Part shown: positions 29,601 to 59,600 of the stretch, one piece after another
How positions within the stretch are numbered: the first letter of the stretch is position 1
Layout: each line of letters starts with the position of its first letter
Origin: Owenia fusiformis
Lineage: Eukaryota > Annelida > Polychaeta > Sabellida > Oweniidae
Assembly (NCBI GenBank): GCA_903813345.2
Contig: CAIIXF020000007.1
Span: 12,754,714-12,818,713 of the forward strand
DNA: 64,000 nucleotides
Reading direction: 5' to 3'
The notes under the pieces: generated by a model
What the model was told of the DNA's origin: nothing
The model's database searches: none
The model's input: the letters and a program-made list of their open reading frames with translations, nothing else
Program-made: the position numbers and the translations under genes

Positions 29601-32600
29601 TGCAGAACCAGGTCCAGGAGGTCATGGTGCCCATAGACAACCTTCAGCGCCCTCTGGCTTTAGATTATGACATAAATGAACAGTTTATTTACTACTCTGA
29701 TGTGGAAAAGGGAAGAATAGGAAGAGCCAGAGTGAATGGATCTGACAGAAATGATGGATTTATATCTAAAGGTAAAGGAAAAGCGGCATTTCAATTTCAG
29801 TTGATTTAACACATTACATAAAAAATATTTATATTTAAAATATAATATCACATAAAAAATATTTTTTATATTGTCATGTTCCATGCTTTTATGGAAATTA
29901 ATGAAATTAAGTGCAATATACGAGGAGTGAAAGTAAAGGATACTTTTACATGGATGCTTTTTGTGGAGAGAAGAGCTCTCATTTGAAGGGTTCTTTATTA
30001 TGAACTCAACAAAAAAGTGGCATAACGTCTAGATTACTCTAGAGTATGGTTTGTTGTTTGATTTACATCACATTTATGCATTGTATTAAGACATATTGAG
30101 AAATGAAGCTCTGTTTCCAGGTATTAACAATGTGGAGGGCATAGCCATTGATTGGTTGGGTAAGAACATATATTGGACAGATGATGGATATAAGAGTATA
30201 AGTGTCGCACCCCTGTCTGATCCCACCAAGAGGAAAACTCTTATTAGTTTTAACCTAGAGCACCCAAGGGCCATTGTCGTTGACCCGAAAGCAGGGTAAG
30301 ATGTCTTCTCTTCTTGTAAATTTCACATAAATTCTACACATCATCACTTGCATTTTCTTTATGTATTGTAAAATACTATTTTGTTTACTACATTGTGTGA
30401 TGATGAATCTTTGTATAAGAGTATTTGTTATTAATTTTTAATTATGCTATTCATAAAGTTCTTTATATTCACAAAACAATCTTGCTTTATATGTTTACTG
30501 TTTATATTGCAATAACCTAGTTTTATAGCAAATCATGTGCTTCTCTGTTTCTAGTTTAATATGTTTAGCATTATCATTACAGTTTGTTTTATTTTATTAT
30601 TACTTGCTTCTAGACTATATTTATGTTAAAGCGACCTGTAATGCCAAATGGCGATTGGTCTTGCTTTCTTGTACTTTGTAAATTACTATGATTTAAGAAT
30701 AATAAAAACATTAATAATAATAATAATCATTACAGTTATGTGACTTTCATGAAATCCTTGAAATGAAGAGTGGGATTATATTTTACAGCCTTATGTTTTG
30801 GAGTGATTGGGTCCAGAGCCCATCAACCATAAATCAGGCGAAAATAGAGCGTGCTAATATGGATGGCTCCGATCGTCAAATCATAGTAAATCACAGCAGT
30901 TCTGAGCCGCTGCAATGGCCTAACAGTCTCTCATTGGACACAGCACAGAAGACACTTTACTGGTGTGACGCACATACTAATAGAATTGAGATGATTTACT
31001 ACAATGGAACTCACAGAAATGTATGTTTTGTTTTAATTTTTGATAAATAAGGATATATTTTGAACATGTAGAACATCTAGATTGCATTTGAATATGAGCA
31101 TCTATTTTTGCTATATAATATAATTTATACAAAATTGATAATTCTCAATGATTACATTTACATCTTGTAATTTGACCTACTTTCGCAATTTGACCTACTT
31201 TTGCAATTTGATCTATTTTTGCAACTTGACCTATTTTTAAAGAAATTTCCATGCAAGAGGACTGAAAGTGGTGTCATTTATCTATGAAATCACTAGCCTG
31301 ATCGATGATGCATGGTATTGAATTAATTTTTTTCATTTTTATTGAATTAATTTTTGTTTCATAGACAATATTAACAGCTGACAGCAAGTCCCTGAAGCAT
31401 CCTTACGGCCTTGCCCACGAAAGACATGTGACACCTGAGCCCCAGGAGGATGGGATCTACTTCTATTGGACCGAATACACGGACGGCTTAGTGAAGAGAT
31501 TCGACACAGTCTCCAATAAGACTATAGAGCTGAGACACGATAGCTCTCCTATTTTCCAGATAAAACTCTTTGATAACAGCTCACAGCTTGGTAAGTTTAA
31601 TGTATTACCCAAACCAGAAATCAGTAAGTGGAATGAAGTTGCCAAATTTTAAAATTATCAATAGACAGGTGTATCATCAAGAACAAACCAGACATCACAT
31701 CTTAAATATGACAGCAAAAAAGTGCATTACCTGCTTCATACATTTTTGGGATAAAGAAACTTGGAATTTAATTGGAAAAACATAACTATTTCCATTTACT
31801 ATTGTAGCTGCCAGTAAAGTTCTCAGAAACCCATGTGACCTCTCTCGCTGTGAGGAGTTATGCCTGATAGTGCCTGGTGGTTATAAATGTGCCTGTAAAG
31901 ACAACCATCATGTCATTAATGGAACTGCCTGCTTGAGTAAGTATTATATATGATAATAGATGTATCCTTAAAAGAGCATTTTGTGAATCGAATCTTAGAT
32001 AATCCATTACATTTATTAATGTATGCACATATATTCATAAACCAATAGTATGTACCTATACATTTATATTACAACCATTCATATTATTTCCCATTAAGGT
32101 ACAGCAATAAGTCCACCTGATGGTCCCCATGTATGTAATAAAGACAGTTTCCAATGTGATAACAAACTACAGTGCATAAACAAAGAGTGGCTCTGTGACG
32201 GGGATGACGACTGTTCTGATAAGTCAGATGAAAACGCAACACGCTGTTGTAAGTTGACAAACCCAAAAGTTGCTTATTAAAAATATCATGTCTTACAATT
32301 CCTGAAATTCATTTGTTTTTATGAAATTACAAATGTCAAACTTAAGAATTGTCAACACAAGAAAATAACAGATCTTTAAAAAACTTCCTCTCTTCATTAT
32401 TCTTTAATTCTACCTTGATTTACTCTGTATACCATATACATTTCAGTTAATCAGACTTGTAAGGATGATAATATGTGGGCATGCCCTCACCCAGATAGTA
32501 ACCCTCAATGTGTATATTCACTGTATATAATATACATTTCAGTCAACCAGACATGTAAGGATGATAATATGTGGGCCTGCCCTCACCCAGATAGTAACCC

Positions 32601-35600
32601 TCAATGTGTATATTCACTGTATATCATATACATTTCAGTCAACCAGACATGTAAGGATGATAATATGTGGGCCTGCCCTCACCCAGATAGTAATCCTCAA
32701 TGTGTATATTCACTGTATATCATATACATTTCAGTCAACCAGACATGTAAGGATGATAATATGTGGGCCTGCCCTCACCCAGATAGTAATCCTCAATGTG
32801 TATATTCACTGTATACCATATACATTTCAGTCAACCAGACTTGTAAGGATGATAATATGTGGGCCTGCCCTCACCCAGATAGTAATCCTCAATGTGTATA
32901 TATACGTTGGATGTGTGATGGAGAACCTGACTGTAAACACAATGAGGACGAAGACCCCGCAAACTGTGCAAGTAAGCATAGAATTTGTAGTCCCACATAC
33001 ATGACAGTTAAGGGTCATTAACTTGCACATTTAAGCTTCATTTAGATAGATACATTTTCTCTTTAATAATAGATATCATCGACAAAATATTCAGAAATAA
33101 ACAAGACAATGGTTTGATGAACCATTTATTAGACGCATCACACAACAAACTATGAAAAAATAATATATAAACCTTGATAGGGGATCAAACAGGATTAAAC
33201 TTTCTTCCCCTAGGAGAGATGTAAGATTATTAGGACAATTAATTGTACATCTTGCTTGCAAATTTGTCACCCCTCTAGCTCTGATTCACCTCCCCATTAT
33301 TTATGATTGGAAAATGTTATTTCTAGATATGACATGTCCAGAAAACTACACGCGATGTCCAGACACTAATAGATGTATCTTAAAAAGCTGGTTCTGCGAT
33401 CATGAGTCAGATTGTGCAGATGGATTTGATGAACTGAACTGCAGTAAGTCTAATGTGTTGCTTAGAGAGAACATTAACTTTGCAATTTTCACAAATAATA
33501 AACATGTACATACTTATTGAATCAAGTATTGTTTTTGGTCATCAAATTACCAAAAGAATCGTGAGAACTTGAGAGTCTCAAGTATTTGATAAATTGCAAG
33601 TATATACTCGTACATCTTGAGTCATCTTGCAATGATGCTTTTCAGACTACACAGATTGCGAGCCACACCAGTTCAAGTGTGATAACGGGAGATGTATTCT
33701 GAGGTCCTATGTTTGTGATAGAGATAATGACTGCAAAGATGGATCTGATGAAGTGAGTAGTTGTCAGCATTTCGACTCACAGCTACCTGACAGCCAATCA
33801 CAAATCGCAACCTGTTTTCGCTCTGGCAATGAACTTAGAAACTGTTTGCGACTGATCTCCTTTTACATCCTCAGGGATCGTTAGAATTTAAATCACATTT
33901 TGAATTTACATTTGTTATTTTTTGACAATATCATTTGTTCTTTAATTGTTTAATTAATGTATTGAGCCAACTTAACTATTAAAGTTTCAAAATTATTTAT
34001 TGACCCTTAAAATGTTGTCTTATAATTGTAGAGGTTTTGTCAATACAAGTGTGACAACCTCACAGAGTTCAGGTGTGACAATGGGCGGTGTATCTCTAAG
34101 ATGTTTAAGTGTGACGGAGATGACAATTGTGGCGATCATTCGGATGAACATGCTTGTGGTAGGTGCCCCCATCTGTGATTATGCTTTGACCACTTTGATC
34201 AAATTGAAAACATATTTAATATCTACTTATTTCTAATTGCTATTATATATACTCAGTATAATTATCAGTGCACAGAATTATGCATTTGTGGAGTTCTCAA
34301 AGAATTAGTTTGACCCATAAAATGTCTACATAATTTTTCTGAATTTTGTGTTCTGCTGATTATGACAAATTGTGCTATATTGTTTGAATGTGAGGTCATT
34401 TATGTTTTGTGTCTGAAAATTTAAGAGTGTTTTGCTTCATAACATGTCAGTTGATCGATCATAATTGGGAATTTGTAAAGCAAAGCTAATTTGTATTTTG
34501 TTTAAAGTCCTTATGTCTGTGAGCCTGGTCATATATTGAAATATTTGGAATGTGTTTAGATGAACGCCCCAATGTTTGTGAGCCAAGTGAGATCCAGTGT
34601 GATAATGGGGACTGTGTTCCAAGGAAGTGGTGTCATGATGGAGATGACGATTGCGGAGATGGTACGGATGAGAGATCCGACACAAACTGTAGTGATGGTA
34701 CGTGGAAATACTTCGTAAAAGCTTCTACATCTGCAGTTGCTTTGTAATTTCATTTATCTCCGAAGGTTATGGGAAATTTGCACTTGAAACACAGGCTTAA
34801 AGGGTTTAATTTAGACCAATTTAATCATTAAGTTTATACAAATTCACAATAACAACTCTATAAATTCAGGGTCATAGTCAGGATAAATTTAAGAAGGCGA
34901 AGTAATTTCATGCTTAATGGGGTATATTACTTCAATTGAACTTCTTTTTCAGTTTTAGTTTAAAAAAAATGTCGGAATAAAAGTAGTATTTTGGTGAGGC
35001 AGTTGCCTCGCCTGAATCATGCCTGGCTATGACCACATAATTAAAGTGCTAACTACACACCCATGATAAATGAAAACCTTATTACGCAACCAATTATCGC
35101 TATTTGCAGCCACGTCTAAACATGATAAACTCGAGTGTCTCTCCACTGAGTTTCTCTGCGCTGGAGAACTTCCCAACAAGGGTCAACATTGTATACCTAA
35201 GGCCTGGATATGTGATGGCCACAACGACTGCTCTGATAACTCTGATGAGGGAAACTGTACAGGTATAAGGGTTTATTTAAACATACTACTGTAAAATGTG
35301 TCTAATTGATACACCAATGGAACCAGCTAAAAGTGTTTGGATTGACAGGTGTTTACATTTCAAGTTTTTTAACAAGGTAATCCATGACAGAGTATAAGAT
35401 GGAACTGAAAAAAGTGTTCACATTGATAAGTGTTAGTTTTACTGTCATACTACTGATTTAACACATCCAGTTCAACACTAATATATTTTTATTTATATCA
35501 TTGAGCAATGAAGTTAGTGTTGCTCATTCCATGGTTCAAAATTAACATATAACTCATTACCAATGATTATCACTTTTCAATCTTGGCAACTGGTTGGCTA

Positions 35601-38600
35601 TTGCACATTCGAAACCTAATTGGAGCTTGTGTCTTGGAGTGTGTGTGTTGGAGCCATGATTTGTTTTCAAACGAGTGATGATACTTCGATGAAAATTCTG
35701 AATCCCATGGAGCGTTTTACTGTAATGTCTTCACTGGACAATATCCACATTTCCATGATTTTCATCAATGTTTGATTTTGATAATAATTTACATTCTCTA
35801 TTTCCGACTCCAGTCCCATGCCCAGTGCCCAGTAGACCCTGTGATAAAGACCCCAGTATCTGCATCAGTGCTGAAAAGCTTTGTGATAACTTTGAAGACT
35901 GTGAGGATGGCTCTGATGAAGGCTTGTTATGTGGTAAGGTATTTTTCAGTCAACCATTAGATCAATTCATTTTTAAGTATGCTTTTCGTCATCTAGAACA
36001 ACCAAAAATAAAGAAATAAATGAGTTGTAAGTGAGAGAAATATTTATTGATCAAATGTTTTTGTGTGTTCAAGCTTAAATCAAGCTTTATGTAGAAATAT
36101 TATAATCTCAAAAACAGTATGCTGAATTCTATTGAAATATGCTATTTCAGGGATAGAGTCATGTGCTACTGCAGGCCATGTGTGTAGTCATTATTGTCAG
36201 AATTCCCCTGATGGTTTTGTATGTACATGCCCCAAAGGCCTTAAGATTGACCCATTGAACACTACGGAGTGTGTCCGTAAGTACACTAAGACAATAAATA
36301 TTTATGGGTCACGAAAATTGAAATTAGTTTTTCATTAAAAGCTGCAAAAACTATTTGCCCAGCAACTTTATATTTGAAATAGAACCCAATTGATCCATTA
36401 TTTACTCTGAAATCTGAACTGAACTTAAGATATAAATTTCAGATCAGAGTCCAGATTGTGGAGAGTGGGGTGTCTGTAGCCAAAAGTGTCACCAAGGAAA
36501 ACATAGAGCTATTTGCAAGTGTCTCCATGGCTACGAACTAATGCCAGATCAGTTTACTTGTGTTCCTATAGGTGAGTACAAAAGATGCTACCATTACACA
36601 AACACAACATTACACAAACAAACATGTGGCTTGTCATGAGTGTGTATCATTGTCATTAATCTTCACTTAAGATCCATATCAATTGCCAATTTTTGAAAAA
36701 AATAAAGCTTTCTTAATGCAATATAGCGAAAGGTTAAATTAAAAATAGATTATGACTATTAACACTATTGATATGAAAAAGGTTTTAAATTAGTTTTTCA
36801 AAATTGGATGTGATTGTAACTACCGTATTTAAATTACATACTTTAAGAAATATGAGAACTTTGTATATGCTACTTTCCACTTTACAACATACCTCTAGGG
36901 TGTCATGTGAAATTGATTTGATTTGAATTGAAATTGTATTTTTCAGACAATGATGATGTCCCATTGTACGTCATATTCTCCAACCGACATGAGATTCGGA
37001 GATTAGACATCAAAGGGGAGACATATGTCCCTCTCGTGACTGGTTTAAGGAACACAATCGCAGTTGACTTTCTATATAGCAACTCCAGCGTTTTCTGGAC
37101 TGATGTTGTTGATGATAAAATATACAGAGGAACAATGATGGCAAATGGTAAGTTCATAGAATATGTATTCCTATTTTGAACTTCCACTTTCACATAATTA
37201 GGGGCCAACTCATAGGTCTGATATGGAACTTACATTTTTATATCTTCATCTATTGAGAATCATTGGTAGGTTATCAATTATTAAAGTACCCTATTCATCA
37301 AATTGCAGTAACAAACTTTTTTCTTTATGTGTGAAGAATTAGTATATCACTTTTGAGATGACCCCTTAAATACATATTATATTATATGTGTCAATACCTC
37401 CATTAGAGAGGTATAGGAATATTCAGTTGGTGGAGCTTTTTAAAGAAAAGTTGCTTAGCAAAGTTATACACTTCAAAATCCTTTTTATATCTCTTATTTA
37501 AGTAATCCATTGTTTTATTTGAAGGTTTTGGATTTATATGTCCAGTCCATTGAACTGCCGTGTTTTGTTTCTCTATTATTGTATTAGATGGAAAGAATGT
37601 TGGTAACAGCTTTGCTAAAGCTTGGAGGGTCTCCGCATAATATTCTGTTATCCCAACTAGGAGGTACTCTTCCTCAATAGTTCTCTTTACAGTCGCCAAT
37701 GTGCATTTTTTCTCCTTTTGGGTCCTTATATCGCAGAATGATAACAGCATTTTGTTTGGTGTTTGAAGTGAACAGTCCATGCCTTTCTCAATACATTCAT
37801 CTAAAGGAAGACCCTTGTGTTTGCCATAGTAATAATCCAGCCAGTGATAAGATGATATCGCCCTAGCAACTGGATCCCTCATCAGTTGAATATAGATAGG
37901 TTGTTGGTATCCATAGTAACTGAAATTCACAAATGACATATGCCTGACATGAAACACGGGTGGTGGTTTTGAGGAGACATATTTTGCGATATCACCCTCG
38001 TTGAAGTCCATCGTTTCTGGTACTTTGTGATCATACAAAAATGTAAGGTTGTTTACCAGTGCATACTTTTTGACTACAGTGAATAGAGTAGTGCTTCCAC
38101 ATTTTGCGATCCGGTTGTAGACTACAATCTGTTTCCCCAAATCCTTTACTTTGTAATCACCTTGTATGTTTAAATGCACATAAGTCTGACTGTACAGTAT
38201 TATATTGAGAGAAATTACTGTGAATATAATTGGGATGAAAAGAAGCATAACATTACCAATTGTCAATTTCATTTTTCTGTTTAACATTGTGTTGAGTGAC
38301 TGTTTTGTATTTTGACTGTCCCAATTTGCTTTAAAACTTTGGATCATTAATCAAAGTAATTGTTTTAAAAGTTGGAAAACCTGATGATTAATTATGGTAA
38401 AGTTGTTATAGTAAAAAATAACAGTAAAGTCGTTAAAGTAAAAATTATATTTTTAACATCTAAACAAGCGACAATATGGACCTCTTTATAACATATAACT
38501 GTCTGGCTTTGAGTTCAGTTTTAGCCAAATAATAAGTTTATTGACCTATATTGATATATCATCCTCGTACTAATGTAGAGTGTTCTCTTGCAGTGGTCAC

Positions 38601-41600
38601 CAATATTGAGGCAGTGGTGAATGTAGGTCTAGCCACAGCTGAGGGTTTGGCCATAGATTGGATTGGGCATAACATATATATATATCATCCTCATACTAAT
38701 GTAGAGTGTTCTCTTGCAGTGGTCACCAATATTGAGGCAGTGGTGAATGTAGGTCTAGCCACAGCTGAGGGTTTGGCCATAGATTGGATTGGGCATAACA
38801 TATATATATATCATCCTCATACTAATGTAGAGTGTTCTCTTGCAGTGGTCACCAATATTGAGGCAGTGGTGAATGTAGGTCTAGCCACAGCTGGGGGTTT
38901 GGCCATAGATTGGATTGGGCATAGCATATATATATATATCATCCATGTTTCTAATGTAGAGTCTTCTCTTGCAGTGGTCACCAATATTGAGGCAGTGGTG
39001 AATGTAGGTCTAGCCACAGCTGGGGGTTTGGCCATAGATTGGATTGGGCATAACATATATATTTATCATCCATGTTTCTAATGTAGAGTGTTCTCTTGCA
39101 GTGGTCACCAATATTGAGGCAGTGGTGAATGTAGGTCTAGCCACAGCTGAGGGTTTGGCCATAGATTGGATTGAACATAACATATATACATGTATATATC
39201 ATCCATGTTTCTAATATAGAGTGTTCTCTTGCAGTGGTCACCAATATTGAGGCAGTGGTGAATGTAGGTCTAGCCACAGCTGGGGGTTTGGCCATAGATT
39301 GGATTGGGCATAACATATATATATATCATCCTCGTACTAATGTAGAGTGTTCTCTTGCAGTGGTCACCAATATTGAGGCAGTGGTGAATGTAGGTCTAGC
39401 CACAGCTGAGGGTTTGGCCATAGATTGGATTGGGCATAACATATATATATATCATCCATGTTTCTAATGTAGAGTGTTCTCTTGCAGTGGTCACCAATAT
39501 TGAGGCAGTGGTGAATGTAGGTCTAGCCACAGCTGAGGGTTTGGCCATAGATTGGATTGGGCATAACATATATATATATCATCCATGTTTCTAATGTAGA
39601 GTGTTCTCTTGCAGTGGTCACCAATATTGAGGCAGTGGTGAATGTAGGTCTAGCCACAGCTGAGGGTTTGGCCATAGATTGGATTGGGCATAACATATAC
39701 TGGGTTGAGAGTAACCTTGATCAGATAGAGGTCGCTAGTATAGATGGAAAAAATCGCACTACATTGGTAGCTGGTGATATGCATAGTCCAAGGGCAATTG
39801 CACTGGATCCAAGATATGGGTAAGAGGCAGAAGTGAATTATAACTTTTTAGGCCCTTATGATTTAAATGTTTGTTTGGAATTGCATACCCGGTCATCCAT
39901 TTTTGAATTTTTTTTAAAAACAAAGGAGATCTGGTAACCTGAATTTTGTTCAACTTTTTGTTTGCTTTCCAATAAATTGCCTGAATCTTAGAAGGGAGGT
40001 GACATGAAACATACATTAAACCTTGAATGGCCTTAGAGATATATTCAGCTAGGATGTGTCCATTTCAGAATGTTATTCTGGAGTGACTGGGATGCAAATA
40101 ACCCAAGAATAGAGATGTGTTCCATGTCTGGGGATGGCAGGAAGACCATTATGAAAGTCAGTACCTTAGAGGGAGCAGGGTGGCCTAATGGTATCACAGT
40201 GGACTATGAGACAACACGAGTCTATTGGATTGATGCAAGGTATAACAGATTGTGGTGGATATGGCCAAATGTAGACACAATGCATAAAGCATGGATTAAA
40301 TATTAACTCAAAACTTTTACTTTTGTAATGTACTGCATAATCTCCACATATCTGAACATCTCTATAATCTGAACACGTCCCAAAGTGTTTTTCTGGGTCC
40401 TATTAGACGGTCTGGCTTAGATTTCCTTGAATGAATTTGACCCAGTGGCGAGTGGTTTTACTGTATTTTTTTCTATTCTTACAGGTCTGATTCCATCCAT
40501 ACCATCAATTACACTGGTGGTGACCATCATGAAGTGTTGAGGGGACATGACTTCATTTCACATCCATTCTCCGTGTCAGTGTTTGGTAACCATGTATATT
40601 GGACAGACTGGAGAACCAATGCTCTTGTTAGGGTATGTAGGAATTAATGTATGGTAAAACTTGTATATGTTTATGATTTGTACCCATACAATATTTTGGG
40701 TTGAAAAAAATGTTTTCTTCCATATTTTGTCAAACATCAGTATTTGAATTATCAGTTTTTTGGGTTGTCAAGAATGGTTTTTAGAATGATATTATTTAAG
40801 TACATGGCGTCAGTTCTTGATGATCTTGAAGTTCATAAATTCTATTGTATTGTTTTATATTTACTACAGGCCAACAAGTGGAATGGATCAGATGTTGAAG
40901 TGATACAAAGGACTACAACTCAACCATTTGACCTACAGATCTACCACCCGAAACGACAGCCAAACTGTAAGAATCATTTATATTATATTTTGGTGTTTTA
41001 GAGGATCAAAATGGCAGACACTGCTCTTTTGATAATGAAACTATTTCGTTATTTGAATTTTGAACTTGAATTTATGATAACATGTGTTCAATTTTTCCCT
41101 ATGTGTTACCTATCTTTCTGTTAAAATAATTGCTTTGTAACAGGTATAAAAACAGGCACAAAAATCATTTATTATGAAGCTTTTTGCCAAAACGCTTCAT
41201 AACAAAGCAATTTAAGCCAGCTGTGTGACAGTTACCATAGATGAGCGACTAATTAGTGTTGGCTTCTTTCAGTCATAGATGCAGAAAGTGTAAAAAACCC
41301 ATGCGCAGAAAACAATGGGAATTGTTCCCATCTTTGTCTGATTAGCTTCAACCAGCAGGCTGGCTGTAGATGTCCACATCTCATGAAACTTGACAAAGAC
41401 AGCAAAACTTGTATTGGTAAGTACATATGTACTCTCATGCTGGAATATTATATTATCCTTTTTTTTAAGGATGGTCCCGATGTAACAACAGTATTCAAAA
41501 TTACAAGTGAAAGGTTCTGACTAGATTTCTATCATATATCCCCTACCTTATCAAGAAAAGTTATATTTTACCATATTAAAAGCAGTATTTTTGACTCCTC

Positions 41601-44600
41601 TTATTTAATGAAATGACAGTTTGGATATGATTTTTCATCAACTGAGCAATTTTGTTCAGTGCTTTCAATTCTTGAGTCATGGATTGTTAAGAAATCAAAA
41701 TGTTAGTTCTGATTTATTTCGCAATCAGACTTTGACATTTCCTGCTTCCAGTTGAGACAAAGTTCCTCGTTTATGTGAAGGATAACGAGATAAGAGGGGT
41801 GGATATGGAGAATATGTACTTCAATGTTATTCCCTCCCTAACTGTACCTCATGTTGAGAAACCTGCCACCATAGACTTCCATGCCAAGAATAAAAGGTAA
41901 CTATTAAACATGACTAGACATTTTATTTAACTTATGTTATTTGCAAAATATGTTCATGTTTTCAATCCAGTGCAAATCTTCAATATATTGCTTGACTTGA
42001 GGATGTTTCTGAATATGTATGAGAAACTTATCGAAGTGACCAAGGGGTTGTTAGTTAGAGCTGCTCTATCAGAGATTGATACGAGGAAATATTATTGAAC
42101 AACAATTTAATTTGGCTTTATATTTCTTATATTTAGATACATGTAATGCTTGTCTTGACTGTCACAATTATGATATTGTTTACCACATGTGTTAGTAATT
42201 ATATTAATTATTATTATTGTGTGTTAAATATATTATTGTTTATCTTGTGTGTTGAAATTATAATATTGTTTACCTTGTGTGTTACAGGTTATATTGGACA
42301 GATAGTAGCTACATGTTTATAAAGAGTGCCTACCTAAATGGAACAGATATAGAGACAGTCATTGACTCAGGTATAAAAAGCAATTTGCATTTTCTTCACG
42401 AATGAAATGTTATATCAAATTCTGTCAATAGTGCAAGTTATAGGTTATTTTTTATTTATATTGATTTTGATTCTAGTGTATATTCACGCGGTCCTAACTT
42501 CGACCATTAATTTGAACTTTTGACCTACCAGGTGCTTGAAAATCAAGGATTGCGAGTCTCATACTGCACCGTTTTTCACCAAACTTATACCATTAAAAGG
42601 AGAACAAAATTGCATTTCTGTCGGTGCATTACTTTATTGTAAAGAGTCCCTCGTTCTAGCAGCATTTTGGTCCCTACCTGTTAGAAGGCCTTCTTACAGC
42701 TGGGGACCAAAATGCCGCTGGAAGTAGGGACTCTGTTGAAGAGAATAATGTACCACCAGAAAAGGATTTGTGTTATGCTTTGAATGGAACAAGTTTGAAG
42801 AAAAACGGTGCAGTATGAGACTCGTAATCCTTGATTTTCAAACATCCGGAAGGTCAAAAATTCAAATTAATGGTCGAAGTTAGGACCGCGTGATATTAAA
42901 ATCAGAGTTAGGCACTAAACCATTTGAAAATCTTCATCTTCCTTAAGCAAAATTAAAGCCACTTGTCAGTCCAATAGCTTCAAATAGATAGAGCAAGTCA
43001 TCAGAGTTCAAGTATCAAATCATGATGACTAAGAGTCTAATACTTCATCATGGTGTTAGTAGGTGATGGAAAATATGCTTATCAGACTTAATTTCAGATC
43101 TATTATCAAATACAATGGTAAGGGGAAAATATGTCAATTCCATTTCTTGATTTCTTGATATCTTTATTTCTAGGTATTCCTAATCCATTGGGTCTGGCAA
43201 TTGACTGGATTTCAGAGAACATGTACTTCACGTCATACAGGAAGACAGATGGCTCTGCCAGTCTTTCCGTAGCCACGTTGAATGGTGCATTTAGGACAGT
43301 TCTAATCTCAGATAGCAGAGAATTGTTAAAACGTCCCAGTTCACTGGCCGTTCACCCAATGTCAGGGTAGGTTTCACATCTCAGACTACATTTTTCATTA
43401 CTTTTAATAGACTTTAAATTCACTTATTTTATACAAAAATGCAACCCTCTTGATCTGAAATAACTTTCTTTATCATGGTGAAATGTCATAGAGTGTTTTC
43501 AGAGTGTTTATGTGTAATATATATATTTACATATTACTACATACATGTACTTCAGAGTGTTTATGTGTAATATATATTTACATATTACTACATACATGTA
43601 CTTAATTGCTGAAATGCATCAATGACTGATTTTACTACGTAAATTAATATCACTTACCAATTATGTCATTACAATATGCTAAACGCTACCATAGTCACCT
43701 TTTATTGGAACAATTATTTTCTACTTTCACTTTCGGTTTCCCGGAAGCCCCGCCCACTCTACGTCATAGTTGCGCATGCGCACCATTCATTTTTCTACCA
43801 TTTTGAAAGTCACACAAAATTTTCAAAAGTGCGATAAATTGGTACAAAAACGAGTGTTACAAGTCTACTATGTCGACGAATACAACGCAGTTAGATACAA
43901 CAGAAGGGGTTAATACCCAGGGTGATCCACGAGTTAGCCCAGCGCGCTCGAACAAAGGTAAATCACCGGTTGTGAAGTCTAAAGTTCTAGAAAAAGACCG
44001 GCGTGGCCGTAGAGAAAGTCGAAGTACTTCAATTTCTAGTAGGTCAGACTCTGACACTTCGTTTAAAAGACGTAAAAAACATCGTCACAGAGATTCGGCT
44101 TCTCCTAAACGGCGACGTCACAGAACTAAATCTATTTCCTCAAGTCCGAGGGGTAGATACAGATCGAGATCCAGGTCTAGATCCAGGTCTAGATCAAGGA
44201 GATCACGTTCTCATTCCTCAAGTCCGAGGGTGAGATACAGATCTAAAGATAGACTTCACAATCGTAAAAGGTCTAGATCTAAGTCCAGGTCTAGATACAA
44301 GTACAAACATAGATCAAAGTCTAGGTCTAGATCAAAGTCTTTGTCCTCAAGTCCGAGGAAAAGACACAAATCTTCACATCATAGATCTGCTTATAGGTCT
44401 CATAGATCTCCTTCTTTAAGTCCAAAGAAGAGATACTATCGTAAACAATCTCCTTCTATAAGTCCTAAAAGGAGACGTTACAGAAATGATAAAGATTCAC
44501 CAGTATCAATGGGAGAGAGATCAATTTATCAATCCGAGAATTGATCAGAGACAGGAAATGTTTCAGAATTTCTTGCAAGACCAGCAAGTTCTGAGAGCGA

Positions 44601-47600: not shown

Positions 47601-50600
47601 GATTAACTGGGAGTACAAAATTCTAGATAGAGAACCCCATTACTTTAAACGGAAAGTAAAGGAAGCACTTCATATTCATACAAGCAAGCCACAACTTAAC
47701 AGGGACTCTGGATTTAAGGTTTCCCCGGGACTGTTGGAACTACACAGGAGTAAAACCCAAACAAGGTCAAGGGTCAGCCCATTTCCCGCCAATATATCAT
47801 CTTGACAAAGGTAGTAGCTGCTACCGAAAGCTCGAAAAAGTAAGTTATTTTGGTTAGTGATTTGAGGAAAGGAATACAAATTAATTATCTTTACCTAACC
47901 GATGAATACATTTGGACAAATATAAAGATGTTCCAATATCTCGACGATTGGATGATAATAGCATCATCACACCAAGTAAGTTCAGAGAACACGCAGACTG
48001 TGTGCAACTTAACGAAAAAGTTAGGCTTTCTCCTAAATCTGGAGAAGTCAGAGTTAAATCCAACTCAGCAACTTACTTACCTGGGCTCACTTTACAACCT
48101 AAAGAAAGGTCTGATTTTACCCACTCAATACAGAGTGGAGTTACTCGAAACAGAGATACAGCGTTTCCTAGCGAAACCTTTACAAACAGCAAAATTCTGG
48201 AAAAGAATTTTGGGTCTCCTAGCGGCAACAGAGAAAATTGTGCCATATTAGGGAGATTGTTCATGAGGGAGATGCAATACGATCTCCAGAGAAATTGGAA
48301 TGCCTCAAAGGACATGAACATTTTGATTCCATGGTCCAAAATGACAAGACAAGACTTAGTCTGGTGGCTAAACAAGGACAATCTTGTGAAAGGTGTTCCG
48401 ATTCAAATGCAGAATTCAGTAGATCTAAAACTGTTCACAGACATTTCAATGACAGCTTGGGGAGCACATTTAGAAAATCTAGAAGTTTCAAAGATGTGGT
48501 CCAAACAAGATCTGAACATGCACATCAACATGAAGGAGTTGATGGCAGTAGAGTTAAGTCTCAAACATTTTCAACCTCAAGTACAGGGGAAAAGGATACA
48601 AGTATCCTCAGACAATGCATCCACTGTGGCCTATTTGAAAAATCAAGGCGGCACACATTCTTACCAGTTATTCAAGGTAACAAAAAGAATTCTGCTATGG
48701 AATCAAGTCAACAATATAGAAATGACAATACGTCATATTCCAGGGAGATTGAACATTCTGGCAGATGCTCTGTCCAGAAAGTCTCAGATTCTGTCAACAG
48801 AGTGGAGTCTGAAAGATCAAATTTTCCATGCAATTTGCAGGAAATGGGGAAAACCTCTAGTAGACCTTTTTGCGACACGACACAACACGAAATTACCTCT
48901 GTTTGTGTCACCAGTCCCGGATATGCTAGCATGGGAGGTAGATGCTCTAAGTATGGATTGGAAAGGTCTGTGGGCTTATGCCTTTCCCCCGACACCATTA
49001 ATCTCTCTTGTTCTGAACAAGATGTTGCAAACGACAAATGTGGAAATGATTCTCATTGCCCCATTATGGGAGAAACAAGCATGGTATCCCAGACTGTTAG
49101 AGTCTCTTGTAGAGAAACCTCTAAACATTCCAGTAGTTCCAAAAATGTTGAAACAGACAAGACAATGGGTATTTCATCAAAATCCCCAAATATTCAAGCT
49201 TCACGCTTGGAGGCTGTCAAACAATCCTTTAAAAACAAAGGCTATTCAAACAAGGTTTCAGAAAGAATTGCAAAACCTCAAAGAAACTCCTCGATCAAGG
49301 TATATGACTCGAAATGGAGAGTCTGGGCTGGTTGGTGTTCTGAACGGAATAGAGATCCATTCAGAACTTCTGTTACTGTAGTAGCCGATTTTCTGAATTG
49401 GTTATTTGAAGATAGAAAACTTCAACCAGTTACTATAGCAGGATACAGAACAGCCTTAGGTAATACTCTGAAAGAAACTTCGAATTTAGATATTGGTTCA
49501 GATCCTTTGATTTCTTGTTTGCTATCTAATTTCAAACAAGAAAGACCGAGGAATATCTCTAATAAAATTCCAAACTGGGATTTAAATGTGGTCCTACAAG
49601 GTCTTATGAGACCTCCTTTTGAACCTATCGAAATTGTTGATTTAAAATATGTCACGTGGAAAACAGTTTTTCTCACTCTGTTAGCTTCTGCAGCAAGACG
49701 CAGTGAGATACATGCCTTGGTGCTTAAAAAGGTGTCACATAGTATTGACTGGCAATCCATTTTTCTGGGATTCAAATCTGACTTTGTACCCAAGACCTTA
49801 CTAAAGGCTGGAGGTACTGTCCTGAAGGACATTGAGATAAAAGCCTTAACAGGTTTTTTGACACCAGATCTTCAAGATGACAAACTTTTATGCCCTGTTA
49901 GAGCATTAAAAGTTTATATGAGAAGATCAAAGCCCATGAGAGATAAACAACAAAGATTGTTTATATCATACAAGAAAGGCTATAAAGAAGAGATACATGC
50001 TAACACAATAACTTCATGGGTGAAGAATTGTGTAGCAAAGGCATTACAGTCTTTTCCCAAGCATGCTGAGCAGGTTTATAACGTTAAAACTCACCAACTC
50101 AGAGCCTTATCAACTTCCATTGCTTTTGCGAAGAATTGCACTCTAGACGAGATTATTCAAGCTGGAAGATGGACTAACTTTAACACGTTCGCTTCATTCT
50201 ACTTAAAGGAAGTGTCCTTGAAAGACTTCGAAGGCAACCACTTCATTGCTGCGAACAAAACTGTTTAAGTAAGTTTTAAAGTCTTATAGTTCATTATTCT
50301 ACCAACAAAAGGTGGAAAGTTTTTGTTATTCATCTCCAATTATTTGTTATCAATAATTAAGATATGAATAACAAAGGAGTGTGCTTGGATAAATTATTTT
50401 CACTTGTTACTTTTAGTTTTGCGTTGCAAAATTATTTAACTTAATATCCTATGGTAAGGATAATGATTCAAGTATGAATTCTAATCAGTTAATGCTGTTT
50501 TTGGACTATTTTATTTTCTAAGCTAATATCCCTCCACCTGCTCTGGTGGGATTCAGCATATTGTAATGACATAATTGGTAAGTGATATTAATTTACGTAG

Positions 50601-53600
50601 TAAAATCCCAAAATTTTATGTAATTTTGGTTTTTATAAGTTAATTATACTTACCTATTATGTCATTACATCAAAAGCCCTCCCTTGCCACCCCGCTTATC
50701 AGCTTTAAAATAAGCGTTTCACCTAGTGAAAAATGAATGGTGCGCATGCGCAACTATGACGTAGAGTGGGCGGGGCTTCCGGGAAACCGAAAGTGAAAGT
50801 GAAAGTAGAAAATAATTGTTCCAATAAAAGGTGACTATGGTAGCTTTTAGCATATTGTAATGACATAATAGGTAAGTATAATTAACTTATAAAAACCAAA
50901 ATTACATAAAATTTTGGGATTTATGGAAATAACATTTGCCATTGAGATCACATAGAATCATCCAAAAACATAAAGAAAAGCAATTTCATGGATTGCTTCC
51001 ATACATATTAGTTCTGTGATGATTTCATCATTTTTTGAGCTATTCCAAGATTAGAAGGTTACATGTTTGTGTAACCAATTACATTTGTAATAGTAGTATC
51101 TCACATTATGCGCTATTTTCATGGTTTAATGATTTTATTTTCTAGGAAAATCTTTTGGGCAAATGATGGTGACACATTATATGGAGGAAGTAAGGGTGAT
51201 ATAAACTGTGCCAAAATGGATGGTACAAGTCGTCAGCTTCTATTCCCTAATGACCTGGTTCTGGCAGACGCAGTGAACAAACCAAGAAGTAAGCAACTTG
51301 TATTTAAGTTTAGTACAGTATGTAGATCTTGGGAGGTGTTCTATTTTAGCAACTCAATGTATTTAAGAACAGAACAGTATGTAGAACTTGCGAGGTGTTC
51401 TATTTTAGCAACTCAATGTATTTAATTTGAAGAACAGTATGTAGAACTTATGGTTATACATTAATCAAATTTTGGTGATACATGATCATTTCATTGTTTT
51501 GTCAATTCCATTTCAGGTCTTACAATTGACTATGAGAATGAGAAGCTCTATTGGATAAACAGTGGGGCGAATCTTCATAAATATATCACTAGATGCAACC
51601 TAGATGGCACTGATCCAGTATTTATACATCTTGGCATAGACAGCACAACTCATCTCAACTCACTCACTATATTCAGTAACCGGATTTATTTTGGCACAAA
51701 TGCATCATTGAACTCCATTCATATCAGCCAGAGAAATGACACACTTAGGGTAGAACGAAGGAATACAGTAGGCATAATGGCAATGAAGGTGTACGACCAA
51801 ACACTCAGGGATGACTGGGGAACTAATACTTGTGCAGTAAACAATGGGGGGTGTAACCAGTTATGTCTCCCAACAAGTGCCACAACGAGGGTTTGTAAAT
51901 GCACAGCAGGGTACATATTAGATTCAAACAACAAATGCGTTGGCATAGAAACATTCCTGATCTACTCCAGGGATACAGAGATTAATGGCGTCTCATTGGT
52001 CGATACTGGGAAAGATGCACTGCCACCTATATCTAAGATTCATATGGCAACTGCTATTGATTTTGATGCAGGTATGAAATCATATTAAACCCAGGACTCA
52101 ATGAATTGTAAGATGATTTTACATCAAATGTCTTGTTTCCAGACTTTGAATGAGTGTAGCAGCATGAGTTCAAAGTCCAGGATACAAGACATGAGTGGAT
52201 TAAATCATCCACAATTCATTGATTCATGTGTTTAAACAACACATAATGTTAATATCAGATTTGGTCCAAATATTATAGGCTAATGTGAATGCTTTAAGCA
52301 ATTAGGACTTCAACTGAAAAATGGAGTACTGGTGCGGTATCATGCCATGTTATGGGTGCAGGTTCTGCCAGAAGGAGACAATACTAAAGCCTGGTTATCC
52401 TGATTAATATGTTATATTCAGACTGATGGGTCATTTTGATTTACTGATTTACTGAATTTATCAAGATTATATAAAAGTTGCAGGACTAATATAATTCATG
52501 GATATTATTGGAGGCTTCAATCAGGCCTACATTAGGTTTGATTCAGGTCTACATTAGGTTTGATTCAGGTCTACATTTAGTTTGATTCAGGCCTACGCTA
52601 GGTTTAATTCAGGCTTACTTCAGCCTTGATATTGCTTAAATAACTACGATTGCTTGCAGAGTTGGACTATATATACTGGGTAGATACAACATCACGCAAA
52701 ATCTCTCGCATCAAACGTGATCTTACAGAGAGACAAGTGATCGTCAGTAGTGGATTGAAAATGCCTGAGGGTATTGCGGTTGACTGGGTTGCAAGTAAGT
52801 GGTAACATTCTATACTCTTTACAAAAATTTGACTTCATTCTGCCTCTTTCAAAGAGAGATGATTCTTGGAATTAGTCAATATCTAATGATATTGGGGATC
52901 TGATCCTTATTGTTTGAGTCATCAATCAGACACTTTAAAGTCTTCAAAATGTTAATTTCTCATTTAAACTCTTGAATAAAGGCTTATGAGATCTTAAGAT
53001 CCAAGTAAAACTAAAACTGTAAAATAACTACTTGTGAGTTTGTAACTGTATAGGTGACACCACTTGTGGTCACTTTGTATTCTTAACTGACAATAGATAC
53101 CCCTGTATTCATTTAGATTTATCTCATTGTTTCAGAAAATGTCTATTGGACAGACTGGGGGCATGATGTCATAGAGGTGTCACGACTGAATGGTTCTTCT
53201 CGCTATGTAGTCTTAGCTGACAACATGGACAAACCTGGTGCAATTGTAGTGCATCCAAACAAAGGGTATGTGAATATAGAATAGTAAAGGATTTAAGCCC
53301 AGGACTCAATGAATTGTGAATGATATTAAGTGATGATTAATGAACACATATAGGGATGAACTTACCTTATAGATGTTCTAATTTTAGGCATATGTTCTAA
53401 TTTTCAGGCATATGTTCTAATTTTCAGGCATATGTTCTAATTTTCAGGCATATGTTCTACATTTCAGGTATATGTTCTGGGTTGATTCAGGCAACCCAGG
53501 GAAGATAGAAAGAGCATTTCTAGATGGTTCTAATAGGACTGTTATTAAACAAGACACTGAATACAGAAAAATCCAACCAAAAGGTATGAATACATTCTAC

Positions 53601-56600
53601 GCATTTTTATAAGGGCTGTTCAATAAATACTGATACAAGTGCTCTTTTCTTGTTTGTGAGGGAATCAAGATGAAATTTTCAGGAATGGTAAGCAATATTT
53701 ATGTCATACATATTTTGACATATTGCCTTTAATCTATGAATTTTCTTTAATTCTTTTACAATTAAGATACAATTTAGCAGGTTTTCAATCTTATGCTGTC
53801 TCATTTTTATGTCACCATAAAGACATGGTGAAATATTGCTATGTTAAATTTTTACTGGTTACAACATTAGTAGTGGACACCTGTAATAAATTGTTACATT
53901 TTGTTACCATCCGACATGACTCACAAGGTGGTGACATTTTGCAAAGCTAATGCCTTGTTTATTCCTACTATAGTTTTCTTAAAATGTTGTGATGTCTTGT
54001 ATTTCAGCTCACACTATTGATTATGAGAAAGACTTATTATATTGATGTGATGTCTTGTATTTCAGCTCACACTATTGATTATGAGAAAGACTTATTATAT
54101 TGGTGTGATGTCTTGTATTTCAGCTCACACTATTGATTATGAGAAAGACTTATTATATTGGTGTGATGTCTTGTATTTCAGCTCTCACTATTGATTATGA
54201 GAAAGACTTATTATATTGGTGTGATGTCTTGTATTTCAGCTCACACTATTGATTATGAGAAAGACTTATTATATTGGTGTGATGTCTTTGTATTTCAGCT
54301 CTCACTATTGATTATGAGAGAGACTTATTATATTGGTGTGATGCCAAGGAAGACAAAATATATGAGATGGACCTAAATGGTGAGAACGAAGAAGTTGTGG
54401 TAGCTAACAATGGCCGTGGTCAAAATGCTCTAAATGACTGTTATGGACTTGCTACAAAGGGGGACTATTTATATTGGATTGACCCGTGAGTATATGAAAT
54501 TTTATTGGACTATTTTCTTTAAAGGATCTGTACCTATTAGTGTACCTATAAGAACTTAGAAAATTATTGAAAAGGGTAAAATGGAATTCCAGAATTATTT
54601 TTATGCAATTTGAATCTTTATTAAGTATATTTTCAACAAATTACAAAAATAGTGTGGAAAAAGTGGTAAAAATGTGTTTTTTACAGTGATTCTTAACACA
54701 TGTCATGTTGACTCTTCAAATGAGTAATTTTGACATATTTTCACAGAACCTTGATTAAAATCTGGAGTTTTGTTGATAGACTTAATTTCACTTTTCAATA
54801 TAAGAACTACAATGTGTCCTAATCTACTAAGCTTCATTTCATGTACCATTCATGCATAAATTGTTAGTAATCCAATTGTATTGAAAGACACCCTATTGTG
54901 TTTTTGTTGTAAACAGTGAATGACCTTCTCCATTCATTGACAGATTGAGGTACTTCCACAAACCAGACCCCCTCTGAATTTACCTTTATTGTTTCGTATT
55001 GACACTATTTTATAATTCAAACATGAAATTAGAGAGGGTCCTAAGTGTGGAAGATACACAACATGAAAGTATAGCAAAAATTTTAGTTTCAAAAGGGAGG
55101 CCATATTGAAATTGCCATTATAGTCAAGAATCCATTCTGCCTTGAATGTATTGCTTAAGGTAGGTGCAACATAGAACCTTCTACAAAAATAGAAAATCTT
55201 ATTTAGAAAGATATTCTTGACTGAACCTTCCAACAAACTCTGTCATTTACAATAACTATTGTGTCAATGTATCACGCCACAGAGACATCCAACCCGGATT
55301 CCCATAGATAATTCTGAGCACCATGTTCAAACCTCTAAACAGATTTGTATTCAATTTTCAATGATAACAAGATCAAAGAAAACGTGTCATTTGCAATAAA
55401 GCAATTAAATCACAGGTAACTTAAAATAATGTTTTTCAGAAATTTGTTCATGGGGTATACTATTACATGTATTAGAACGTGTGATATGTAAGCAATGAGC
55501 CTGATAATCGAAAAAATATGTTTCGGCTAGTCATTAGTTCAAATGAATATTGCTTGTTAAGTGTTCATGTGAAATACACTAAGACTATTATGTCATCTAT
55601 CATTGTTTCAATTTCTTTGACAATGAAAATATAATGCAATGGAAAGTCGCAACTAGATTCAGCTTGAATTTAGGTTTTGTATTTTCAACTGTTGCTCTTT
55701 GTATTCTACCTTATCTTTAATGATGTTTTGACATAGTATCTAGGTTGAATACCTAGGTTAAAGCTGCAATAAGGGTGATCATGGTACTATTGTTCAGAAC
55801 ACATTTAACAAGGTTCGTTTTATCAAATGATAGATTATTTTTAGGGGTTATTTTATGATTTGTGTTTTCAGTATGTTGCCCTTTGTGTCCCACCTTAATG
55901 ATATATTGATATACCCTCTAGGTTGAATGCCTACTGTTAAACAACTGAGATGATCATGGTACTATCGTTGAGAACACATTTATTAAGGTTCATTTTTTCA
56001 AAAGATGTATTAAGTTTTCGTTTTTTTATGATATGTGTTTTCAATATGTTGCTCTTTGTGTTCTACCTTAACGATGTTCTGATATATCGATTGAGGAATG
56101 GTCAACATAGTTAAAACGATCATAAATGAAGACTAACATACCCTTAAAATGATATTTAGAATGATTTGCGTAGTCAAACTTAAATGCACTGAATGACCTT
56201 AGTTTTAATCCAAATGACCTAATTTCAGTTTTGATGTGTTCATAATTGATAAAAGTAACTATTTTAATATTATTTTCAATGAAACCTTTGGGGGCACCTT
56301 CAGGTACATTAGGTAACGGATCCTTTACTGGCCATTACTTTTTATGAATTGAATTTTTTATACTTTATGTTTAAATCAGTTTCTCTTTTCCAAATATACA
56401 GGGTGTCTATAATTGTCATTTTACATGTTGCACAAGCTTTATATTGTAATTATAAAGATACTTAATGGAAACCCTGCACAAATTATCATCGATATAAGGT
56501 TTTGAGTGGTTGGGTTTCTAATATGGCTTACAATGTAGAATTTGCCAAAAGGAGTCAATACTACCACCTGTTTAAATGATGAGTGATGTGATAAAATATG

Positions 56601-59600
56601 TTTTGTTTGGTGGGATCTGCTACTACAAGGAGTTGCTGTTTGTTAATATTTGTTTTTAAAATAGACCTTTAGATTGGTACGTATTCTAAGTTTGGTTATC
56701 TCTGATTTTGCAGGAGCTATTTGGATGGGAGTATATCCAGAGTTAACAAGTCCAGTAGTAGAAACAGTGGTGATGTGGATATTAAGACCATTAAGGAGCA
56801 TCTATCCCCTAAAGTCAGAGATATCAAACTCTTTGATAAGGAAAGACAGAAAGGTAAATATTAAACAAATATTTCATTCTATGGAGGGCAATACCTGTAC
56901 TGATTTTTGCAGGGTGAGGGAAATAGATGCTGCAAAAATCATTGAAAGCGAAACCGAGGCCTAAGAACCGTGCAACACCACAGTTTCAGTTCACCATTAG
57001 ACCCTTTATAAATACATACAAGTATCATTGTATACTACACTTTTATTTTTGTCCCTTCCATTTGTCAGAATCCACGGGCGAGCAATACACCATGCAATAG
57101 GTCTTTTATAATCAAATAATTCAGGAATCAGTGAAATACGCTATGGTCTTTTTGATCACATGATACTGAATCAGCCAATCAAATCGCACAATTTCTAGCA
57201 ATGGTATTATAATATCAAATCTGTATAATCACTACGTAACATAATAATTATTGTTCCTATGCAAAATGCTACTTAATGATTTTTGTGAAATTTATTTTCT
57301 TCATCTTCTATTTTTGGCATACATGTATTTCATTCACTAATATTTAATGTTAATTGCTCAGTTGTACCAGATGGAAGTGCCTGTCAGAAAAACAATGGTG
57401 GCTGCCAACAGCTGTGTTTACGAAAAGGTCTTAATGAGTTCCCGTGTGCCTGTGCCCATGGGAAGGTACAGCCTGATGGCAAGTGTGGAAGTAAGTAGAC
57501 TTGTCTACATTTAGATTGGAGATGGTTTAGGGGTCACTGATCAGGCAATTTATAAAAGGTCTGAGTTAATAAATTCCATCAATCAGTGATATGTACAGCC
57601 TGATGGCCAGTGTGAAAATAAGCTTGTCTTCATAATTAGTGTCAATATATTTTCACATTAAATAATTTTTGCAAGGTAAACAAATAAATCATATTGGGAA
57701 ATGATAAAATATTTGTTTTAATTTTATATTTCAGACTACGAGGCTTTCTTGCTTTACTCCCAAGTCACAAGCCTCAATACTTTACACATGTTCAATGAGT
57801 TTGACAAAAATGACCCTCGACGCCCAATCCAAAAAGACACAATGAAGAATGTGATAGGCATGGCGTTCGATTACAGCAAAGAGACCATCTTTTACAGTGA
57901 TATCCAGCAGGGAAATATACAGTCTGTCAAGTTTGATGGGTCAGATTGGAGGTCTATTAAAACAGGTGAGAGTGACAAGTAAACATTGGCAATGACTTAT
58001 GATAATAATCATATTTGTATAAATATTAACATTTTTACATATCGCCATCATCTTGTTTTACTGTTGGCCATATTTGGACATGTGCATCCTAGTTAACCAT
58101 ATATGGATTTATTTGTCCCATGCCTTTTTATTTGCTATCTCTATCAAAGATGGCATTTATTGGTTCATGCTTTTTAATTGACCATATTTTGTATTTTAGG
58201 TGTGGGATCAGCAGAAGGTCTGGCATATGACCAGCGTTTCCAGGAGTTGTATTGGACCAGTTATACAGACTCCTCCATCACTAGGATCAACATCAGTCCA
58301 CTTAGAAGGGATGCTGAAAGTGAGAAAGTTGTGAAACTTGGACCAGAGGACCACCCCAGATCTATTGTAATTGACAGCTGCAAATCGTGAGTTTTAATCT
58401 TACAATATTAAATTGTTTCACTCAGATTTCATGCCAAATTTTTACCTCAAATATGGTTGTGATACTTGTAATGAATGTGTGTAATACTTGTCATAATAAA
58501 AGTTGCTTATTATGAAGACAGTTTCCCCTTTTCCATTCTCTTATATTCTCTTGTACTTTCAGGCAAATGTTCTGGACAAACTGGAACGACCACGAGCCTA
58601 GTATTCAGAGATCATACCTTGGTGGCTGGGGCATCAGGTCAATCATCACAAGTGAAGTGAGAACCCCCAATGGCCTCACCATTGATCACAGGGCACAGAA
58701 ACTATTCTGGTCTGATGCCAGGTTGGATAAAATTGAAAGATGTGAATTTGATGGTTCAAATAGAGTGGTGAGTGAAAATGGCCTTAATGTATGTATCATC
58801 AATGTGCCACATTTATTTGTTGATTATTCCATTGAACAAATTTTGAGCAGAAACGATGATATTAAGCAAAATTATCACTTTTCACTTAATTTTCACATTT
58901 TTTCAGGCTATTGTCACATTTCTTTCTTATTGTCACATTTCTTTCATTTTGTCACATTTTTCAGACTATTGTCACATTTCTTTCATATTGTCACATTTTT
59001 CATTCTATTGTCACATTTCTTTCAGGTTATTGTTGCCCAATCACCAGAGCATTCATTTGGTCTTGCTGTTTACGGTGACTACCTCTATTGGACAGATTGG
59101 GTACTAAGAGCAGTGTTGCGTGCGGATAAGTACACTGGGGGCGACATCACATGGCTTAAGAAAAACATCCATAAACAGCCAATGGGAATCATCGCTGTAG
59201 CTAATGATACAGAAGATTGTAAGTGATGTTTAATCATAAGGCACATAAGATATATATCTAGGTTATTTACTGGGAGGGATTGAATATGGGTTTTATAGTA
59301 GACTACTTCATAAATTGCTGCATGCAAAATATGAGAATTTTACCCTAGTTTCCTTGGTTGACCAAAACGGGTCAGGATATATTTAAAGGTCTTTTTCAGA
59401 ATGAAATTTAATTACTGTAATGAATATATTTGTATTTCCAGGTACGCTAAACCCATGTGAGGTCCAGCATGGAGGCTGTGAATACAACTGCACCGTCAAT
59501 GAATATGGGGCAGTGAACTGTACGTGCCCAGCTAATTTCAAACTCCAACCAGATGGAAAACGCTGCTCCACAGAGAACATCACATGTTTGGATAAAAATG

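Follow-up and report, generated by a model that had tools for sequence, protein, structure and literature searches.

Background

Tandem repeats that lie across exon-intron boundaries, at either end of an exon, are known as 'mirages' from the globin genes of amphioxus, according to the available part of the paper that describes them (PMC3087553). Repeats of this kind, here called ladders, are present at four 3' splice sites (acceptors) of an LRP1-like gene in the annelid Owenia fusiformis, within a window of 64,000 nucleotides, contig C7 12754714-12818713 (CAIIXF020000007.1). The LRP1 ladders belong to this published mirage class, minisatellites that extend over a boundary, and it is very probable that they are nearly neutral products of a minisatellite-rich genome, with no special property of LRP1 behind them.

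The available text on the amphioxus mirages (PMC3087553) gives units of 10 to about 160 bp, with AG or GT in many of the repeats, not in all, copy numbers that differ between two haplotypes, and concerted evolution within an array. It also cites earlier work on mirages of the amphioxus gene Adh3 and presents reverse transcription PCR (RT-PCR) that suggests that regular splicing is undisturbed. Literature searches on such repeats or on splice-site duplications, in which subscription literature was thinly covered, gave no report of mirages outside amphioxus that could be recognised from titles and the openings of abstracts. The Adh3 mirages are said to have been reported by Canestro et al. in 2002 in Nucleic Acids Research.

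To judge from the available amphioxus text, the likeness is close. In both cases the unit consists of the intron end, the AG and the exon start, or of a duplicated 3' boundary of an exon, and is present in several copies; the authentic copy is kept, and several genes are affected. The partial homogenisation of inner copies in amphioxus may have a counterpart in Owenia. The Owenia ladders differ in being in an LRP1-like gene of an annelid, with four in one gene, and are known from the DNA of one assembly. If the annelid case is true, mirages would not be peculiar to amphioxus but a general outcome of minisatellites forming in introns, with consequences for gene annotation, where ladders give false exons, and for models of how introns lengthen and are gained.

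In one such model, tandem genomic duplication of an exonic AGGT generates a new intron, as set out in the available part of PMC3443670; the Rogers model is cited in the available text of PMC3087553. As far as those parts go, the resemblance is that tandem duplication copies splice signals and splicing conceals the duplicated sequence. In the Owenia gene, however, the copied acceptor was already there, and its intron merely grows longer. Intron gain was considered for the LRP1 ladders and rejected, the repeat being at the end of the intron and the exon joins 17/18, 27/28, 39/40 and 40/41 all keeping phase.

Acceptor ladders in the LRP1-like gene

The assembly is 498.3 Mb in 525 contigs, 12 of them chromosome-sized (31.9-62.2 Mb, sum 477.5 Mb), with the remaining 513 totalling 20.8 Mb; amphioxus genomes have 19-20 chromosomes. 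Three matches above the cut-off to PF16915 (Eryth_link_C), an annelid erythrocruorin-linker family, fit an annelid; they are less than 15 kb apart, one has an internal stop, and 14 control genomes gave none. The gene that hosts the ladders encodes a giant LDL-receptor-related protein. LRP2 chains are the best PDB matches for its central part, and reading of the exon translations gives a first cluster of two or three LDL receptor class A (LDLa) modules and a second of eight. These cluster sizes are LRP1-like, and the label 'LRP1' is therefore reasonable, not proven. The gene model was made with a purpose-written small gene finder, with exons picked by eye and spliced to the last ladder copies, so the intron-exon boundaries are those of a model, not of RNA. 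It has 50 exons in the window, and phase holds at 46 of the 49 joins; the three that break it precede exons 3, 21 and 42, none of which has a ladder. The gene finder itself broke the ladders of exons 18, 28 and 41 into false exons.

The initial annotation had reported four clear cases in which intron end, AG and exon start are repeated, and their periods and copy numbers were reproduced by Tandem Repeats Finder (TRF), with which all arrays were detected. All are on the forward (+) strand. The ladder before exon 18 extends from 32425 to 32901 (96 bp, 5.0 copies), with acceptors at 32447, 32543, 32639, 32735 and 32831, all in frame and open. Its unit includes the initial 70 nt or so of an LDLa exon, and exon 18, when the last copy is used (32831-32971), is a phase-consistent LDLR class A module, with a Pfam LDLa match in the peptide of exons 18-20. 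A second ladder is found before exon 28, at 38554-39699 (about 127 bp, 9.0 copies), with acceptors at 38594, 38720, 38846, 38975, 39102, 39235, 39361, 39488 and 39615; the last opens exon 28 (39615-39819), part of a YWTD propeller, with phase kept.

The other two are close together. Before exon 40 the array is at 53373-53478 (20 bp, 5.3 copies), its acceptors are at 53388, 53408, 53428, 53448 and 53468, and the exon from the last copy (53468-53583) is phase-consistent in the model. Before exon 41 it is at 53988-54343 (58 bp, 6.1 copies), with acceptors at 54008, 54066, 54124, 54182, 54240 and 54299. Here the last copy leads into an exon of 54299-54485, which keeps phase and by sequence encodes part of a YWTD propeller.

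All four have the AG at a fixed position of the unit in each copy, with exon sequence after it, and by the boundaries of the model they are repeats that span the boundary and carry AG splice signals. The last acceptors (32831, 39615, 53468 and 54299) lead into complete exons in phase with their neighbours. It had been pointed out that only the last copy does so, which is true but automatic for any tandem duplication spanning an acceptor, because such a duplication leaves the intact junction on the exon side; across a 5' splice site (donor) it would be left at the first copy.

Looser cases had also been proposed before exons 34 and 47. Arrays are indeed present at both, but are less convincing than had been claimed. 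A degenerate 30-bp array at 42166-42283 (+) stops 5 bp short of exon 34 and by TRF is confined to the intron side, and a 19-bp polypyrimidine array at 58909-59024 (+), with AGs in some units, stops 2 bp short of the exon at 59026, which is exon 46 in this model and probably the exon 47 of the initial annotation.

Origin and variation of the copies

Each array has, at its two outer ends, a short word that intron and exon share. The words are TGTATA for exon 18 (at 32426 and 32895), ATATA for exon 28, which is low-complexity, ATGTTCT for exon 40 and TGTGATG for exon 41, that is 6, 5, 7 and 7 bp. In a further acceptor ladder at another LRP-family locus, L013, described below, the word is ATGGCTGC (8 bp). 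When 300,000 pairs of places were drawn at random with similar spacing, runs of at least 5, 6, 7 and 8 bp occurred with frequencies of 0.009, 0.0036, 0.0012 and 0.00027. Combined, the chances come to 6e-10, for borders and words that were chosen by the analyst. Because intron and exon have a word of 5-7 bp in common at the borders of each LRP1 array, the arrays were likely born from short direct repeats, by slippage or end joining. Such an origin of minisatellites has reportedly been described by Haber and Louis and by Taylor and Breden; the words of 5-8 bp at the borders agree with this, the difference being a unit that, in the present case, extends across a splice junction.

The ladders would then have begun with a short direct repeat with one copy in the intron, immediately 5' of the acceptor, and the other at the very start of the exon, between which slippage, template switching or end joining may have produced a tandem duplication of intron end, AG and exon start. 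Unequal exchange could subsequently have increased the copy number and homogenised the inner copies, as the mosaic of variants suggests.

The copies within a ladder are non-identical, with point changes and, in exon 28, also differences in microsatellite length. Variants are distributed as a mosaic among non-neighbouring copies, which is the pattern expected from unequal exchange. In exon 18 one variant is common to the outer copies and absent from the inner ones, and exon 28 is likewise a mosaic, as seen without a phylogeny. Some of the non-last copies of exon 28 have G for E, S for N or E for G. For exon 41, H for L is found in 4 of the 5 non-last copies, and the last copy differs from all five others by R for K. 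A constraint on the last copy alone is weakly suggested by such non-synonymous differences, the non-last copies far outnumbering the last.

It is extremely unlikely that the ladders are an artefact of assembly. Tandem arrays misassemble easily, and one amphioxus mirage seems to be aberrantly assembled in the draft genome, as stated in the available part of PMC3087553. However, there are several independent arrays here, whose copies have their own variants and microsatellite lengths. In a search that skipped very common words, the arrays of exons 28 and 41 had no match in the assembly other than themselves. Because the copies differ and these two arrays match nowhere else, simple duplication by the assembler is improbable, while exact copy numbers may still be off. 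An origin of the ladder units from a dispersed element was also judged unlikely, the exon 28 and exon 41 arrays being single-place in the assembly.

Splicing of the ladders

The outcome of using each acceptor was judged by translation in silico. A premature stop follows from 17 of the 21 upstream acceptors: all 8 in exon 28, all 4 in exon 40, all 5 in exon 41 and none of the 4 in exon 18. Splicing to the last copies, by contrast, gives an open, homologous LRP-like protein and is favoured by the predicted frames. For the exon 27/28 join there is also an alignment with LRP2, part of which crosses the join with gaps of just a few residues, so that the relative holds one copy's worth of sequence there. 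The suggestion that duplications of an acceptor and exon start are easily tolerated fits these translations.

Local acceptor strength would hardly explain a choice of the last copy. The upstream copies score 6.7-6.8 against 6.8 for the last in exon 28, 7.9 against 7.7 in exon 41 and 5.6-6.4 against 5.6 in exon 18, so that the last copy is not singled out in any of these three; in exon 40 it is slightly the strongest (5.7-7.6 against 8.0). Since the last copies served as training data for the score model, any bias would favour them. Because local strength does not separate the copies, selection of the last one would have to rest on something else, most simply the nearness of the last copy to the downstream donor, that is, exon definition. 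The upstream exon would be joined to the last acceptor, the sole one directly before an intact exon and donor, probably by this route. Transcripts made from an upstream AG have a premature stop by translation in 3 of the 4 ladders and are presumably rare or degraded. The arrays would be nearly neutral because splicing would go to the last acceptor and the alternative transcripts would be few or short-lived.

Each ladder offers the spliceosome 5-9 near-identical acceptors in a native gene, a ready-made test of 3' splice-site choice. Branch-point scanning, nearness to the donor and exon definition are the candidate selectors when local sequence cannot decide.

The same layout could serve a function, in which decoy acceptors slow or divert splicing into stop-containing isoforms that tune the dose of LRP1. 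AGs of near-equal score every 20-127 nt, with stops in most of the upstream copies, are what a poison isoform would need. Still, regulation is a very unlikely explanation. No regulatory feature beyond the repetition was noticed, though no search was aimed at one; copies in exons 28 and 41 carry non-synonymous differences from the last; and like structures are found in other introns and at a donor. The proposal that the ladders tune acceptor choice found no evidence in the scores, which differ little among the copies.

Ladders at other LRP-family loci

Two further samples of the genome were analysed. The random control was 200 kb, made up of 20 evenly chosen 10-kb pieces of contigs C1-C8 (L031-L050). 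The LRP-family control was made from 27 of 30 loci, merged into regions (L016, L025 and L028 are inside the window and were excluded), and a 6-kb downstream piece (L051). The LRP-family sequence sampled in this way, all outside the window, came to 68.2 kb in 16 regions, one of which is the downstream part of the LRP1 gene, with 83 predicted exons at a score of at least 6.

The LRP-family DNA contains one acceptor ladder and one donor ladder, both on other chromosomes. The acceptor ladder is at 2721-2964 of L013 (C1, near 50.471 Mb), with 3.5 copies of a 70 bp unit before an EGF-like exon (PF14670, E 2e-9). The donor ladder is at 2683-3024 of L003 (C8, near 37.115 Mb), with 3.0 copies of about 115 bp. 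It closes a nidogen-like exon, to which nidogen chain 1npe was aligned across all 189 query residues. Its unit is the exon end, GT and intron start, with GT in all 3 copies, and the copy attached to the exon is the first one. Exon boundaries are therefore affected at the 5' as well as the 3' splice site in this genome. Because LRP-family loci elsewhere hold an acceptor ladder and a donor ladder, the ladders are neither LRP1-specific nor acceptor-specific.

In the random pieces, no boundary ladder was accepted among 71 predicted exons (score at least 8, some of them surely false). Candidate rows from L031, L036 (two rows) and L047 were dropped by eye, the array itself having been called an exon, and L046 was dropped as a case of whole thrombospondin-type exons in tandem. 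Rows from L035 (a 10-bp array 10 bp from a donor, and an array within an exon) and L037 (an array within an exon) were also dropped.

Evaluation of alternative explanations

Several observations weigh against nearly neutral minisatellites that owe nothing to LRP1 or to the acceptor. They concern the position of the arrays, their extent in LRP1, the border of the donor ladder, the choice of acceptor and the exon 18 ladder.

In the window, clear ladders are found at 4 of 50 acceptors and 0 of 50 donors. When 12 single units were placed at random in the gene-dense part (48 exons), the means were 0.91 on acceptors and 0.90 on donors, and at least 4 at acceptors had a P of 0.0065. Some preference for acceptors is thus possible. 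For at least 4 at either boundary the P was 0.077. Placement of whole arrays gave means of 1.52 on acceptors and 1.51 on donors, with P of 0.05 for at least 4 at acceptors and 0.36 at either boundary. Tandem arrays cover 6.5% of the random pieces, and against that base rate 4 of 50 acceptors has a P of 0.41. It had been claimed that the four cases are far more than scattered minisatellites would give; by these figures the claim is weakly borne out. The acceptor excess in LRP1 is nominal and was chosen after the fact.

The ratio of acceptors to donors leans towards acceptors. It is 4:0 for the clear LRP1 arrays (P 0.06), 5:1 with the other LRP-family loci (P 0.11) and 7:1 when the two loose cases are added (P 0.035). 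Arrays are at 1 of 133 donors, which is below the base rate (P 0.0014), and at 5 of 133 acceptors, which is not (P 0.29); the asymmetry is at most a hint that donor duplications are less well tolerated than acceptor ones. A position test looked for a neighbouring copy at 28 or more of 36 bases, and found one for 4 of 50 acceptors and for 0 of 50 donors; of 1011 positions deep in introns, 95 had one when the search went upstream and 111 when it went downstream. At face value the acceptors have no excess; many of the control positions are probably inside ladders, so the test is uninformative.

A local mutational hotspot for duplications of intron ends, as the initial annotation proposed for this gene, would account for the larger share of LRP1 that is repetitive. 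Arrays cover 10.1% of the bases there, against 6.5% at random, and large arrays (period at least 15, at least 3 copies) number 8 in 32.4 kb of LRP1 and 20 in 200 kb of random DNA (P 0.033). The ladder frequency of 4 in 50 acceptors compares with 1 in 83 predicted exons of the other LRP-family DNA, 4 of these 83 being downstream in LRP1 (P 0.066), and the two looser arrays, those of exon 34 and of the exon at 59026, likewise adjoin acceptors. However, half of the 8 large arrays are the ladders themselves, the comparison is post hoc, and the number of arrays per kb in the gene-dense part of LRP1 is that of random DNA (0.37 and 0.355, from 12 and 71 arrays, P 0.49). With ladders also at other LRP-family loci, one of them at a donor, the hotspot is not borne out and is quite unlikely.

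Two shorter points stand beside these. The border word shared by intron and exon is imperfect, by the analyst's reading, in the donor ladder L003. The use of the last acceptor is deduced from frames and homology.

The last point concerns the exon 18 ladder, where the period of 96 bp is a multiple of three and all 4 upstream copies are open and in frame. This ladder might be translated, at least in part, through its first or an inner acceptor, which would add 1-4 half LDLa units of 32 residues as a coding repeat. All 5 copies are alike in the residues that their exon-derived part encodes, the five variable sites being synonymous by the analyst's count. The chance of this is 0.0001-0.0007 if every copy is free to vary, and 0.07-0.09 if half of the changes fell in a constrained copy. 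The extra units, on the other hand, are half modules, each with three cysteines and a hydrophobic stretch derived from the intron, and in a peptide comprising the four copies 2-5, of which the last was complete, Pfam finds a single LDLa, the last. By the analyst's estimate an open, in-frame unit of 96 bp is not an unusual chance event, and in the three sister ladders the upstream copies can never be read through into the exon. Translation of the exon 18 repeat is accordingly an unlikely alternative. It is equally doubtful that mirages arose independently outside the cephalochordates and can become coding, with exon 18 perhaps a translated half-LDLa repeat. Minisatellites that span the boundary and are removed with the intron are the preferred explanation for exon 18, as for its three sisters.

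Other features of the region

Scans of the window with Rfam and for tRNA gave no matches. Intron 35 of LRP1 contains a retroelement at 43628-50922, with terminal inverted repeats. One of its open frames is SR-rich, another encodes a reverse transcriptase (PF00078), and the last is long and has no Pfam match; the element looks DIRS-like. Nested in it, at 46204-47885, is a minus-strand GIY-YIG piece, the 531-bp arms of which are perfect inverted repeats. It has a reverse-transcriptase-like YVDD motif by eye and is presumably Penelope-like.

In intron 27, antisense to LRP1, there is an uninterrupted sulfotransferase-like open frame (PF03567) at 37406-38350 (-). Between model exons 2 and 3 is an uninterrupted fucosyltransferase-like open frame of 432 codons (13466-14761; PF00852, PF17039). 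The same interval has two long arrays of one 69-bp unit, at 15084-15646 and 17279-19040, about 1.6 kb apart and with long open stretches in more than one frame. An (AAC)n run at 26080-26122 of the window, within predicted coding exon 7, gives a poly-threonine stretch.

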